Origin: Candidatus Competibacteraceae bacterium
GTDB taxonomy: Bacteria > Pseudomonadota > Gammaproteobacteria > Competibacterales > Competibacteraceae
NCBI GenBank assembly: GCA_012032855.1
Contig: JAAUQA010000164.1
Coordinates: forward strand, 1-6,993
Direction of reading: 5' to 3'
DNA: 6,993 nucleotides
Position numbers and translations under genes: made by a program. Shown in pieces: positions 2,784-6,993 of the stretch. Numbering within the stretch: the first letter of the stretch is position 1; the number at the start of each line of letters is the position of its first letter. The notes beneath the pieces were generated by a model. That model did no database searches, had not been told where the DNA came from, and was given only the letters and a program-made list of their open reading frames with translations.

Positions 2784-2834
2784 AGCATATGTCTCGGCTT
2801 ATTCAAGCTGAGGTTACGTGTTACGTAATATTGA

Positions 2835-3588
2835 TTATTCGCTAACATCGTAACCATACTGTTCAATTAGCGCTCTTGCGGTTGGGCTTTTAAGAAAAGC
2901 GAGAAATGCCTGACTGGCTTCGTCATCAGCTCCGTTCATCAGAAGCACGGCATCTTGACGAATAGGCTCATAATAGTGGGTCGGGACTATCCAGTGCGAC
3001 CCCTCGTCCGGCTTCAGAAGTTGAGATAACGCGATAAAGCCGAGTTCGGCGTTTACCCGTTGCTACGAACTGATAGGTCTGTGCGATGTTGTTTCCCTGC
3101 ACGATTTTCGAGTTCAGCACTTCGTAAAGCTTAAGCTGTTTCATGACTTGGACGGCGGCGGCACCGTAGGGCGCAAAACCGGGGTTAGCGATAGCGATCT
3201 TATTAAATCGGTTTGCGGACAGAACCTCCGCACCACTCACTAAGTTCGGGTCTTTGCTCCATAGCACGAGCTTACCGATTGCGTAGGTGAAACGGCTATC
3301 GGCTACGGCATAACCCTGCGCTGCGGCTTTGGCGGGTCGTGCTTGATCAGCCGCTAGAAACACCTCAAAAGGCGCGGCTTGGGTGATTTGCGTGTAAATC
3401 TGGCCCGTCGAACCGAAGCTTAGGGATACCGTGTGTTCGGTCTCTTGCTCGAAACGCCGAGCAATCTCTTTAGCGGCCTCGGTAAAATTCGCAGCGACGG
3501 CAACTACCGCGTCGCCTGCAACGGCGGTATTTACCAATAACTGGCCATATAACACCATCCAAGGTAAACGCTGCAATATGCGTTTCAA
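2835..3588 (-). pseudogene. modA: Molybdate-binding periplasmic protein ModA, frameshifted near its C-terminal third
   Basis: ModA captures molybdate in the periplasm and delivers it to ModBC. The start is TTG at 3588, supported by a GGAG six bases upstream. Residues 1-24 form a signal peptide ending near NTAVA, and the mature protein begins GDAVVAVAANFTEA. Family motifs follow: LSFGSTGQIYTQI (57-69), APFEVFLAADQARP (72-85), and NPGFAPYGAAAVQVM (135-149). After VATG (residue 178) the frame changes: as read, 28 unrelated residues follow to a stop at 2968. One extra T in the plus-strand TTT at 3052-3054 explains this. Removing it restores NAELGFIALSQLL, HWIVPTHYYEPIRQDAVLL and the end EQYGYDVSE with TAA at 2835, giving about 250 residues, the normal ModA length. 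As written, the second lobe is incomplete and binding would probably fail. The perfect continuation in the other frame suggests either a sequencing error or a very recent mutation. Confidence 0.93.
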
Positions 3589-3935: not shown

Positions 3936-4355
3936 CTATTTAACCAGTTTTTTGACCTGATCTTCAGCGGCATCCTTCATCATCTTGTCGCCCTGTTCTT
4001 TGGCGGCATCCATCGCTGCGTCCTTGGCCATATCGGTTGCATCGTCTGTACCTGGGATTGAAGGCATTTCCGGCTTGGCTGACTCGACGGACGGAATCTT
4101 GCTTTCCATCCCTCCAGTGGCGGCGTCCATCGCTTGATCCTTGGCCATATCAGTCGCTTGGTCCTTAACCATGTCGGTCGCCTGATCTTGGACGCCTTCC
4201 ATAGCCTTATCTTTGGCCATGTCCATTGCCTTGTCTTGTGCCTCTCCCATAGCTGCATCCGCTGCTTTGGATACCGGATCGGAAGCCCAGAGCGCGCCGG
4301 TATTAGCCAACATTAGACCTACGGCAATCGTCAACAGTGGTTTTAGTAATCGCAT
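3936..4355 (-). CDS. Secreted protein of 8-residue Asp/Ala/Met/Lys repeats, function unknown
   Basis: I do not recognise a named family. The 139-residue protein starts at ATG 4355, with AGGAG eight bases upstream. Residues 1-24 (MRLLKPLLTIAVGLMLANTG then ALWA) are a typical Sec signal peptide with cleavage near 24/25, so it is probably periplasmic or exported. The mature part has two repeat blocks in 8-residue register: residues 33-80 (six units such as DKAMDMAK, DQATDMVK, DQATDMAK) and 104-135 (four units such as DDATDMAK, DAAMDAAK). A Pro/Ser-containing linker (about 81-103) separates them. There is no Cys in the mature part, no aromatic residue after Trp23, and much Met. It is strongly helix-prone and charged, reminiscent of LEA-type or apolipoprotein-like helices but with a different period. 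A role in stress protection, metal or membrane binding would be a guess. It has its own promoter and is divergent from the kinase gene. Confidence 0.85.
   Translation of the reverse strand: MRLLKPLLTIAVGLMLANTGALWASDPVSKAADAAMGEAQDKAMDMAKDKAMEGVQDQATDMVKDQATDMAKDQAMDAATGGMESKIPSVESAKPEMPSIPGTDDATDMAKDAAMDAAKEQGDKMMKDAAEDQVKKLVK
3951..4046 (-). repeat. Second block of four 8-residue coding repeats
   Basis: Encodes residues 104-135: DDATDMAK, DAAMDAAK, EQGDKMMK, DAAEDQVK. The first two units match the first block closely and the last two are degenerate but keep the 8-residue register and the terminal Lys. Confidence 0.6.
4116..4259 (-). repeat. Block of six degenerate 24-bp coding repeats
   Basis: Encodes residues 33-80 of the secreted repeat protein as six 8-residue units with consensus D-[KQ]-A-[MT]-D-M-[AV]-K. 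At the DNA level the plus strand repeats variants of TTGGCCAT(A/G)TC about every 24 bp or multiples of it (for example near 4141 and 4213). The copies have diverged at third positions, so the array is not a recent slippage product. Confidence 0.75.
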
Positions 4356-4405: not shown

Positions 4406-4557
4406 GTAAACACCTCCTGGCGCATAACCCACATTAATCATACACCCTGGTTCACATTGCCGTTCGGCAAGAATGGATGTCCGGTGGACAAACGCTTGTT
4501 GAACGCTATCATCAAAGCAAACCACAATCCGCTCAACAACACGGTGTCCGTCGCTCA

Positions 4558-5829
4558 ATGGACCATTCGCCCCAAGACCTTTTACGCAAGCTTTTTGATG
4601 CTGCAATCGCTTCAGCTCAACCTGCCCTGTGCGTTCCAGCGTATCTCCCACCTCCCCCCAAGGGACGCGCTATTATTATTGGCGCCGGTAAAGGATCAGC
4701 AGCAATGGCTTGTGCGGTCGAGGATCATTGGCCCGGTCCTTTAGCGGGTTTGGTGGTTACCCGTTACGGCTACGGGGTTCCCTGTCGGCAGGTTGAAATT
4801 GTCGAGGCTGCTCATCCGGTGCCGGACTCCGCCGGGTTAAAGGCAGCCGAGCGCATACTGGGTTTAGTGCAAGGCTTAACCGCCGATGATTTAGTGCTTT
4901 GTCTGATTTCCGGTGGCGGTTCGGCGTTATTGCCGTTGCCGCTTGATGGCTTGAGTTTGGATGACAAACAGAACATCAGCCGAGCATTGTTAAAGTGTGG
5001 CGCTTCAATTTCAGAAATGAACTGTGTGCGTCGGCATCTATCCGGCATCAAAGGCGGACGGCTAGCCGCCGCTTGTTATCCGGCGCGAGTAGTCAATCTG
5101 TTGATCTCCGATGTGCCGGGTGACGATCCGATCAACATCGCTTCCGGTCCCACGCTCGGCGATCCGACGACCTGTACCGATGCGCTTGCGATTGTTGATC
5201 GCTATAAAATCGACTTACCACCAGTTGCCAGAGAACAGCTGATCAGCGGTCGCGGCGAGACGATTAAACCGGATGATCCGCGTCTTGCCAGCATTGAGAC
5301 ACACTTGGTGGCAACGCCGCAAAGGGCGCTTGAAGCGGCAGCTGCTACCGCCCGAGCGGCCAACATTCCCGCGTTCATTCTCAGCGACCGCATAGAGGGT
5401 GAAGCTCGCGATGTCGGTAGCGTGCTGGCAGGCATCGCTCTGCAAGTCGCAGAGCGAGGAGAGCCGTTCCCACGACCCTGCGTTTTGCTTTCCGGTGGTG
5501 AAGCAACTGTGACAGTGCGCGGCACTGGGCGTGGCGGGCCCAACGTGGAATTTCTGTTGGCGCTGGCTGTAGCCCTTAAAGGTGCGCCGGGAATTTATGC
5601 CATCGCGGGCGATACCGATGGTGTCGATGGCCTAGAGGAGATCGCGGGCGCTCAGCTCACCCCTGATACTTCGGAACGCGCTTGGCGGCGGGGGATCAAC
5701 CCGCTGGAGCGCCTTGAAGATAATGACGGGCATGGGTTCTTCAAAACCCTGGGAGATTCGGTGATTACTGGACCTACCCTGACTAATGTGAACGATTTTC
5801 GCGCAATTTTGATTTGCGAGACCGATTAA
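4558..5829 (+). CDS. gckA: Glycerate 2-kinase (MOFRL family; often misannotated hydroxypyruvate reductase)
   Basis: Phosphorylates D-glycerate with ATP to 2-phosphoglycerate in the cytoplasm, feeding glycerate from glyoxylate, serine-cycle or sugar-acid metabolism into lower glycolysis. From ATG 4558 (MDHSPQDLLRKLFDAAI) it is 423 residues, matching the family; the frame is open back to ATG 4477, but that extension is low-complexity (MSGGQTLVERYHQSKPQSAQ...) and not family-like. The N-terminal DUF4147 domain shows IIIGAGKGSAAMA (39-51, with Lys45 in the position of the catalytic Lys), LISGGGSALL (116-125), MNCVRRHLSGIKGGRLA (154-170) and LISDVPGDDPINIASGPT (182-199). The MOFRL domain shows VLLSGGEATV (309-318), GRGGPNVEFLLALA (324-337), AIAGDTDGVDG (348-358) and GPTLTNVNDFRAILI (405-419). 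The usual GRGGRNQE reads GRGGPNVE here, a mild variant. The Shine-Dalgarno is weak. It converges on, and overlaps by 4 nt, the recombinase gene. Confidence 0.93.
   Translation: MDHSPQDLLRKLFDAAIASAQPALCVPAYLPPPPKGRAIIIGAGKGSAAMACAVEDHWPGPLAGLVVTRYGYGVPCRQVEIVEAAHPVPDSAGLKAAERILGLVQGLTADDLVLCLISGGGSALLPLPLDGLSLDDKQNISRALLKCGASISEMNCVRRHLSGIKGGRLAAACYPARVVNLLISDVPGDDPINIASGPTLGDPTTCTDALAIVDRYKIDLPPVAREQLISGRGETIKPDDPRLASIETHLVATPQRALEAAAATARAANIPAFILSDRIEGEARDVGSVLAGIALQVAERGEPFPRPCVLLSGGEATVTVRGTGRGGPNVEFLLALAVALKGAPGIYAIAGDTDGVDGLEEIAGAQLTPDTSERAWRRGINPLERLEDNDGHGFFKTLGDSVITGPTLTNVNDFRAILICETD
5826..5829. other. Overlapping convergent stop codons (TTAA)
   Basis: The kinase TAA occupies 5827-5829 and the recombinase TAA is the complement of 5826-5828, so the self-complementary TTAA serves both genes. 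There is no room for a terminator between them; transcripts must run antisense into the neighbour or end within a coding region. Confidence 0.95.
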
Positions 5830-6833
5830 AACAGGCCGGCTAACGGATTATCGCTAAACAACCGTGCATCACGGATGTAGCGATCCAGAATCGCGTTGGT
5901 CTTATGCCCGGAAATTTTCTTAATCTGCCAATGCGGAGCGCCGTTTAGTGCTGCTGAAGTACAGAACCCGGCACGTAGAGAATGGCCCGAGTAAAGTTCC
6001 GCTGACAAGCCGACGGCAGCACTCCGTTGCTTGACAATCACCGCTACAGCATGGCCGGTAAGGGCTTTTTGACCGATTTGACCGTGTTTGTTAATGGGAC
6101 GAAACAACGGTATCGGTGTACTGTCGGTTGCCGAGCCGATTAACTGGTCCAACCAGTCTTGGAGCGCCCTGACCGGACAGACCGAACCTCGCGCATAGGG
6201 AATCCCAATGGAACGCCCCTGCCCCTCTTGATCGGTTTTAGAACGGCGGACTGTTAAGGTGAGTCCGGGTTCGCCGAATTGAACATCGGCAGTGGTCAAG
6301 GCTACTAATTCCGAACGGCGCAACGCTCCGGCAAAACCAATCAACAACAAGGCCCGATCTCTCATATCGCGTGGCGAATCCCCTAAAACCCGCACGATTT
6401 GCAATAGATCGTCGCGTAATGTCGGGGCTACTTGGCGTTGTGCTATCCCGCGTCGGTGTCGGATGCCGCGTAATACGGTCCTGACTAAATCGGTTTTGGC
6501 TGGATTTTCCAATCCCAAACTGGTGTGCGCGCGCCCTACACTGACAACCCAGCGAGCTAAGGTTGCTGGTGCATGGGTTTCACCATGAAAGGCCAAATAT
6601 TCAGCCAATTGTTCCGGTTTACACGGCAAGCATCCGCCCCATGCCAAATAACGCTGCAGATCCTCCTGATACGCTCTGCGTGTATTGTCAGCCGTGGCCG
6701 CCTGAACGTATTGGGTTACGATAGCTGTTTGAGTAAGATTTCCACTTGTTTTTATTTCTGTTAATTTTTTGTTATTTATTGCCATATTATTATTAATCAC
6801 ATTCTTTTGTCTTTTTATTCGTTTTGCGCACAT
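5826..6833 (-). CDS. Cre-like tyrosine recombinase / integrase
   Basis: Site-specific recombinase that cuts and rejoins DNA through a 3'-phosphotyrosine. It is 335 residues from ATG 6833. About residues 35-130 form the core-binding (SAM-like) domain (DNTRRAYQEDLQRYLAW, ARWVVSVGRAHTSLG), and 140-335 the catalytic domain. All six active-site residues are visible: Arg172 in GALRRSELVAL, Lys199 in RRSKTDQEG, His284 and Arg287 in YSGHSLRAGF, His310 in ISGHKTN, and the nucleophile Tyr319 in DRYIRD. The SGHSLRAG box resembles Cre (SGHSARVG) more than XerC/D. The integron-integrase-specific insertion is absent. The first 30 residues are Lys/Asn/Ile-rich and encoded by AT-rich DNA unlike the rest; ATG 6785 (Met17) is an alternative start, and neither start has a Shine-Dalgarno. 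A lox-like site lies about 40 bp upstream. The stop overlaps that of the kinase gene. Confidence 0.95.
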   Translation of the reverse strand: MCAKRIKRQKNVINNNMAINNKKLTEIKTSGNLTQTAIVTQYVQAATADNTRRAYQEDLQRYLAWGGCLPCKPEQLAEYLAFHGETHAPATLARWVVSVGRAHTSLGLENPAKTDLVRTVLRGIRHRRGIAQRQVAPTLRDDLLQIVRVLGDSPRDMRDRALLLIGFAGALRRSELVALTTADVQFGEPGLTLTVRRSKTDQEGQGRSIGIPYARGSVCPVRALQDWLDQLIGSATDSTPIPLFRPINKHGQIGQKALTGHAVAVIVKQRSAAVGLSAELYSGHSLRAGFCTSAALNGAPHWQIKKISGHKTNAILDRYIRDARLFSDNPLAGLF

Positions 6834-6856
6834 TTTATATGAACATAATTACTATT

Positions 6857-6885
6857 AGTATAGCGCATAGTATAACCTTCGGTAA
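6857..6885 (-). promoter_or_regulatory. Possible promoter of the recombinase gene
   Basis: On the minus strand, -10 TATACT (6857-6862; five of six consensus bases) is 17 bp from a weak -35 TTACCG (6880-6885). This would start the transcript about 17 nt before ATG 6833. A second TATACT (6869-6874) lies 12 bp upstream. The -35 lies within the inverted-repeat site at 6871-6907, so recombinase bound there would block it; autoregulation is inferred. Confidence 0.4.
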
Positions 6886-6907
6886 GGTTCAATTAGCGAA
6901 GGTTAAA
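6871..6907. other. Lox-like inverted-repeat site, candidate recombinase crossover site
   Basis: The left arm 6871-6885 reads TATAACCTTCGGTAA. The right arm 6893-6907, on the complementary strand, reads TTTAACCTTCGCTAA. They match at 13 of 15 positions, including the unbroken 8-mer AACCTTCG, and flank a 7-bp asymmetric spacer GGTTCAA. Tyrosine recombinases use arms of about 11-13 bp around a 6-8 bp spacer, so size and spacing fit. The arm shares ATAAC-TTCG with the loxP arm ATAACTTCGTATA. A competing hairpin, AACCTT-CGGT-AAGGTT (6874-6889), overlaps the left arm. Alternatives are an operator or a chance repeat. Confidence 0.55.
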
Positions 6908-6908
6908 A

Positions 6909-6934
6909 AGTCATTTTTATACTAACAAATGACT
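6909..6934. repeat. Perfect 8-bp inverted repeat AGTCATTT/AAATGACT
   Basis: AGTCATTT (6909-6916) and AAATGACT (6927-6934) flank a 10-nt loop. On the minus strand the stem is followed by TTTTT, so it might act as a weak terminator for transcription coming from the right, isolating the recombinase gene. It could also be a protein-binding site next to the lox-like core. Positions 6935-6993 hold nothing I can identify. Confidence 0.45.
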
Positions 6935-6993
6935 CAGGGCCATCGCATTTGGCGTAATCAGCTGAATGAGAGGGAGGGATAAGGCATTTTAGC

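Follow-up and report, generated by a model that had tools for sequence, protein, structure and literature searches.

The window, the whole 6993-bp stretch of DNA analysed here, carries an inverted repeat at its right end and, from there leftwards, a recombinase gene, a glycerate kinase-like gene, a gene for a 139-aa protein, a transport gene set, and pieces of an acyltransferase. The glycerate kinase-like gene (positions 4477-5829) encodes DUF4147 and MOFRL domains and scores under the NCBI glycerate 2-kinase cut-offs. The 139-aa protein (3936-4355) is repetitive, with many MAKDxAMDxA-type near-repeats, and is without a Pfam match. The transport set comprises a binding protein, a permease, and an ATPase with a TOBE domain, and its DNA is similar to annotated modABC genes. 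The ModA-type binding protein stops early and the acyltransferase is spread over two frames (window 2830-3588 and 3-766), which suggests frameshifts through assembly errors or decay. The recombinase gene is set among metabolic genes, with no evident plasmid, and Pfam and domain scans of seven other window proteins gave no match to a mobile-element family.

The recombinase gene (5826-6833, reverse strand) is a complete ORF of 335 aa with a second ATG at 6785. PF00589 (48.9 bits) was the sole Pfam domain found, and the R-K-H-R-H/W-Y catalytic set is present, with R172/R173, K199, H284, R287, H310, and Y319 invariant in an 18-sequence alignment. An arm-binding domain is absent, as judged from Pfam (PF00589 alone) and from an AlphaFold2 model (mean pLDDT 78.4, pTM 0.62; residues 1-31 of low confidence), which consists of a helical N-terminal part and a catalytic part. 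The best sequence match in the PDB was Cre (2e-6, phmmer). In the Foldseek search, the first 33 matches were Cre or its engineered variant Tre, followed by XerA, the Tn1549 integrase, an integron integrase, and XerH; the structural alignments to Cre show 20-22% identity. The curated cut-offs for XerD (49.1 vs 329.6) and XerC (42.1 vs 335.15) were not reached. The complete tyrosine recombinase claimed in the first-pass annotation is borne out by the ORF, the retained catalytic residues, and Cre as the nearest PDB protein. The protein is Cre-like by its sequence and its modelled fold, which describes a resemblance, not a placement on a tree; in the scheme of Smyshlyaev et al. (PMC8138268), as far as the part of it consulted extends, it would group with the simple recombinases. 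The nearest protein, 89% identical, comes from a Candidatus Competibacteraceae MAG, and 7763 of 7997 scored candidates match the recombinase at E 1e-3. Plasmid relatives, all below 60% identity, were found in 3435 of 72,556 plasmid records, 1417 of them over at least 80% of the protein, and several adjoin toxin-antitoxin or partition genes in the plasmid stretches read.

The inverted repeat lies upstream of this gene. Taken as 15-bp arms, 6871-6885 (TATAACCTTCGGTAA) and 6893-6907 (TTAGCGAAGGTTAAA) flank a 7-bp spacer and match as an inverted repeat at 13 of 15 positions; for the 13-bp core arms, 12 of 13 positions pair. The left core arm, or half-site, is TAACCTTCGGTAA (6873-6885, forward strand) and scores 10.5 bits on a family profile built without the window site, and the right core arm is TTAGCGAAGGTTA (6893-6905, forward strand), which scores 12.8 bits and is identical in genome G052. 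Between them, the spacer GGTTCAA (6886-6892, forward strand) is the presumed strand-exchange region; in the related upstream sites, the spacer is always 6 or 7 bp long. The first ATG of the recombinase is 37 bp from the 15-bp arm and 39 bp from the 13-bp arm. This geometry, with the site ~40 bp upstream of the recombinase, had been described at first pass, and the re-read positions agree with it. When 6701-6993 (293 bp) was resampled 3000 times under a first-order Markov model, 4 resamplings contained arms of 15 bp with at most two mismatches and a spacer of 6-8 bp. By the same criterion, they appeared in 5 of 200 resamplings of the whole window, against one in the real window, and by a different repeat score, 0 of 300 resamplings of 6734-6993 matched the window repeat. 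The arms had also been likened to those of loxP. The likeness holds for the two-arm geometry but not for the arm sequence, which agrees at 7 of 13 positions; on the family profile, the loxP arms score -12.1 each. Near-concentric with the core site, an outer 8-bp repeat consists of TTAGTATA (6855-6862, forward strand) and its exact inverted match TATACTAA (6918-6925, forward strand), which are possible accessory binding sites or chance.

We examined the DNA upstream of relatives in two samples, the best 80 of at least 557 confirmed genome relatives and the best 80 of 119 viral-contig relatives. The exact window arm core (AACCTTCG then CGAAGG) gave no pair in these first 160 loci, and plain palindrome counts upstream of all loci were enriched yet noisy, with an excess at several spacers. 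Because the arms drift and the exact search finds no pair, a profile was needed. It was trained on 16 loci with spacer-7 palindromes picked by eye, a choice whose effect leave-one-out scoring lessens but does not remove. The resulting family consensus is TAACTTCCGATAA-N6/7-TTATCGGAAGTTA, with which each window arm agrees at 10 of 13 positions (TAACTTCCGATAA for the left arm). When the kilobase upstream of each recombinase was scored with the leave-one-out profile, 33 of the 80 genome loci and 35 of the 80 viral loci had a site; 18 and 34 of these, respectively, lie outside the training set. Reversed upstream sequence gave two (genome set) and one (viral set), and background matches elsewhere in the loci numbered 15 in 755 kb (genome) and 19 in 680 kb (viral). 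The spacer was 7 bp in 29 and 6 bp in 4 sites of the genome set, and 6 bp in 33 and 7 bp in 2 sites of the viral set; spacers of 3-5 and 8-11 bp gave zero upstream matches in the 160 loci. The window site scores 23.3 on the profile that excluded it, and the next-best 7-bp-spaced place in the window scores 2.6. Relative to where the tblastn match starts, the sites range in position from 934 bp before it to 64 bp after it. By this profile test, 92 of the 160 related loci are without a site, including the 70%-identical L001 (genome G001). The viral loci are partly copies (L159 and L160 are identical, and L086-L088 have one site sequence), and the site-bearing loci span at least nine phyla by record labels, which may be wrong, several of the records being MAGs. 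Upstream of the recombinase relatives, where the first-pass annotation had proposed a search for the same repeat, one arm type thus recurs at 68 of 160 loci, and the spacer is 6 or 7 bp in all of them. These results indicate that predicted enzyme-site pairs of this kind are found across many distant bacterial lineages, as well as on plasmids and phage-like contigs.

Further arrangements were seen in the same samples. In six viral loci (L089, L101, L107, L116, L135, and L136), two sites flank the recombinase in a cassette-like manner, and the two spacers are either dissimilar or no more than similar. At L204 1899-1963 (contig C191 of G022), two sites stand in tandem, with 11 bp between their 9-bp inner arms; the 7-bp spacer of the first is that of the site of L055, which is labelled as another phylum, and its arms are nearly those of the L055 site. 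A phage-plasmid reading of the viral branch was considered and is unsupported, with RepC in 0 of 30 and a ParA-type protein (AAA_31) in 2 of 30 records of viral contigs with the pair, some of which may be fragments.

Linkage of the site to the recombinase was analysed in 27 genomes picked for holding such loci. With at most two mismatches, the consensus matched 21 places, 17 of which adjoin a recombinase of the family; the four places away from one are in G008, G010, G014, and G019. Six of the 27 genomes gave no consensus match at all, and places with three mismatches were about equal in number to the backward control. Looked at from the enzyme, 13 recombinases occur in 10 of these genomes; 12 have an adjoining consensus match and the thirteenth (G009) has a profile site. 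G005, G022, and G023 contain two recombinases apiece, each with an adjoining site. Spacer length changed 6 times on a 70-recombinase tree vs 23.5 times in shuffles, with 0 of 500 shuffles as low, a contrast that near-copies inflate. The distance between the two parts is variable, and in pAACI01 the site is 886 bp before the gene with toxin-antitoxin genes between. Toxin-antitoxin pairs (AbrB/PIN; BrnT/HTH) also lie between site and recombinase on the plasmids of L171 (7067-7953), L169 (3816-4615), and L173 (7384-8184), as if maintenance genes had been captured inside the module.

Among 39 Competibacteraceae genomes, eight carry the recombinase gene. G052, G002, G003, and G036 have the site, G031 has a weak one (14.7, one arm 3.1), and G001, G055, and G056 (3 of 8 carriers) are without a site by the profile. 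The G036 site has a 6-bp spacer, and its recombinase is a distant relative (39%) near a ParA-like gene. In G052, whose recombinase is 72% identical, the site is TAACCTTCGCTAA-ttgaaga-TTAGCGAAGGTTA, with 25 of 26 arm bases as in the window; this was the single match to the window-type pattern with at most three mismatches in the 39 genomes. BLAST of the window against the G052 locus matched 5826-6599 (the 3' three quarters of the gene) and 6865-6907 (86%, 43 bp) only, and the gene's first 230 bp and the remaining intergenic DNA gave no match. The first-pass annotation had named free variation of the arms between close relatives as evidence against a site; G052 keeps the arms while the surrounding intergenic DNA gives no match. 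The spacer of the G052 site (L178 10681-10713) resembles that of the window site (6873-6905) in the opposite gene-relative orientation (5/7 vs 1/7 positions), which could be due to chance or a site flip. The neighbours of the recombinase differ from genome to genome: glycerate kinase in the window, DsbB and a porin in G052, GNAT and DUF924 in G055, BatD in G031, MgtE in G003, and ParA in G036. No second place with at most two mismatches, besides that adjoining the recombinase, was found in G052, G002, G003, or G031.

We next compared related loci for homology that breaks at the site. The Acetobacteraceae plasmids of L169, L173, and L196 have ~2.4 kb in common, from the site through the recombinase, at ~93% identity, and the DNA upstream of the site is different in each for 1.0-1.6 kb. 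Homology ends inside the site; the right arm is common to the three and the left arms differ. For two of these plasmids, searches for donors of the variable flanks returned only the plasmids themselves. Three more records, with only the toxin-antitoxin part in common, diverge 33 bp past the site. G023 has a decayed second copy whose homology to the intact one starts 4 bp beyond the left arm (97.8% identity across 139 bp), with the other flank unrelated. L104 and L128 have a 33-bp identical block, covering 29 of 32 site bases, between non-aligning stretches. In pNY8709-IMP, homology to pND6-1 begins 17 bp past the site; the flank of the pND6-1-like recombinase has been replaced and the site lost. 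A ~730-bp insertion in L082, compared with L084 and L071, is placed at the outer boundary of the left arm rather than within the spacer and was counted neutral. In the breakpoint scan, at least 11 viral pairs were collinear across the site; recombination there is therefore not frequent, and the scan gives no general evidence of recombination. The breaks are few (Acetobacteraceae, n = 3; G023, n = 1) and in branches distant from the window.

We conclude, with a probability of about 0.82, that window 5826-6905 is a two-part, single-recombinase module consisting of a simple Cre-fold tyrosine recombinase and, directly upstream of the gene, its cognate ~33-bp core site. Judged from the sequence, the adjoining repeat is very probably recombined by the window recombinase. 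The pairing of recombinase and cognate site as one module had been the central claim at first pass, and it is supported by the recurrence of the arms at 68 of 160 loci, their retention in G052, and the Cre-like enzyme. By homology with Cre and Xer, one recombinase monomer would bind each arm and two occupied sites would synapse; Cre and Xer biochemistry suggests that strands would then be exchanged stepwise across the 7-bp spacer. A replicon dimer or cointegrate, with its two sites in direct repeat, would in this way be split into monomers, and exchange between sites on different molecules could join them. On a chromosome, a single site would stay idle until a second copy comes, either by replicon dimerisation or by the entry of another replicon with a matching spacer.

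Because there is about one good site per recombinase, and a second copy needs dimerisation or an incoming replicon, we rank resolution of dimers or cointegrates as the main role, a proposal to which we give even odds, and integration of the carrying element second, as a possible role of lower probability. Inversion had also been proposed at first pass. Intrachromosomal inversion or excision would usually be without a partner site, and the lack of any second site in the scans makes inversion unlikely; resolution of dimers or cointegrates, or integration, fits best. The window copy may be a resident remnant of such an element, since its neighbours in the window are metabolic and the neighbours are different in each genome read.

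Among other explanations, the strongest is that the site is an attachment site, or the remaining end of an integrated element, with the recombinase as its integrase and the window copy as a resident or relic; we regard this as a real though less probable possibility. It is favoured by the unrelated neighbours across Competibacteraceae, the presence of the gene in few of their genomes, and the RepC and ParA-type counts on viral contigs. However, no second site was seen in the window or, with at most two mismatches, in the four carriers searched, and the other window proteins scanned include no mobile-element family. It is improbable that the repeat serves solely as an operator through which the recombinase, or some other regulator, governs the promoter of the recombinase gene. 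Its position 37-39 bp upstream, where a promoter would sit, is what such a reading would expect, and dual use is possible; however, the distance of the site varies from 934 bp before to 64 bp after the match start, and toxin-antitoxin genes intervene in pAACI01 and the Acetobacteraceae plasmids. In addition, spacers of 6 or 7 bp go in step with the recombinase tree, a few homology breaks fall at the site, and a consensus scan found no sigma-70 promoter overlapping the repeat. Still less plausible is a repeat that belongs to the host Xer/dif system, or a terminator-like hairpin, and is merely near the recombinase. The inner ATAA/TTAT of the family consensus is reminiscent of dif, but the sites follow the recombinase across genomes and beside paralogues, the arms of Escherichia coli dif reach -6.6 and 3.8 against the profile, and no terminator-like site was found at the repeat. 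A chance inverted repeat, which the many relatives without a site might suggest, is hardly credible: 4 of 3000 resamplings gave one as good, a profile to which the window did not contribute singles out this very place with a large lead over the next, and the arms recur in G052 and at the other site-bearing loci.

We also searched the Competibacteraceae genomes (G001-G003 and G028-G063, for which completeness is not given) for XerC and XerD. By the curated cut-offs, 2 of the 39 genomes have XerC and 1 has XerD, and the eight carriers have neither; these cut-offs are strict, since among 14 control genomes only 4 reach the one for XerD and 2 the one for XerC. With relaxed limits, XerD-like proteins (E 1e-40) were found in 17 of the 39 and in 7 of the 14 controls, and XerC-like proteins (E 1e-60) in 5 of 39 and 5 of 14. 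Four of the eight carriers are among the 17, with a weaker XerD-like match of 143-192 bits. In some Competibacteraceae, the Cre-like recombinase and its site might have assumed the task of resolving chromosome dimers, as XerS, XerH, and XerL have elsewhere; we consider this unlikely because the cut-offs are strict and half of the carriers keep the weaker XerD-like match. The recombinase is absent from 31 of 39 genomes, and there is therefore no family-wide replacement of XerC/XerD. How Competibacteraceae resolve chromosome dimers is a testable question raised by these results.

Literature searches by topic and by site letters, with subscription papers mostly outside their scope, gave no description of this site family among the papers listed. 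The Buchholz group reportedly surveyed further Cre-type recombinases in 2023, a set that may overlap with this family. The site is thus a predicted target for a large Cre-fold recombinase family for which no described target was met in the literature searched, and the predicted recombinase-site pairs at the 68 loci can each be tested directly. They offer two spacer lengths and a variety of arms, a natural set for questions of site choice and for new orthogonal recombination tools. The arrangement itself is already known from Cre/loxP, XerS/difSL, and XerH/difH; the site family is unusually widespread and probably new: no paper describing the site was found in the literature searched, the arms are not those of loxP, and the enzyme is not XerC or XerD by score.

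Cre/loxP of phage P1 and its laboratory relatives Dre/rox, Vika/vox, Nigri/nox, and Panto/pox likewise combine a single simple tyrosine recombinase with an adjoining site of 13-bp arms. By contrast, the Cre/loxP spacer is 8 bp, compared with 7 bp for the window pair and 6 bp in other branches, and the window arms are unlike those of loxP; with neither the loxP arm sequence nor its spacer length, the window site is therefore not loxP itself. Nigri/nox and Panto/pox, which have 13-bp arms and an 8-bp spacer, were found by the same logic, according to the portion of the report consulted (PMC4957104). XerS/difSL, XerH/difH, and XerL/dif use one recombinase per system, as does the window module. 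In the sections consulted, the site is described as genetically linked to the gene for XerS/difSL and mostly for XerH/difH (PMC2731167, PMC5357621), and as not linked for XerL of Legionella pneumophila; XerL of Legionellales also shows that systems of this sort can go unnoticed (PMC9765430). The window module differs from these single-recombinase Xer modules in that its enzyme is not XerC/XerD by the cut-offs and is present in only 8 of 39 genomes of the family. Compared with plasmid dimer-resolution recombinases, relatives of the window enzyme are also found on plasmids, whereas the window copy itself lies among metabolic genes.
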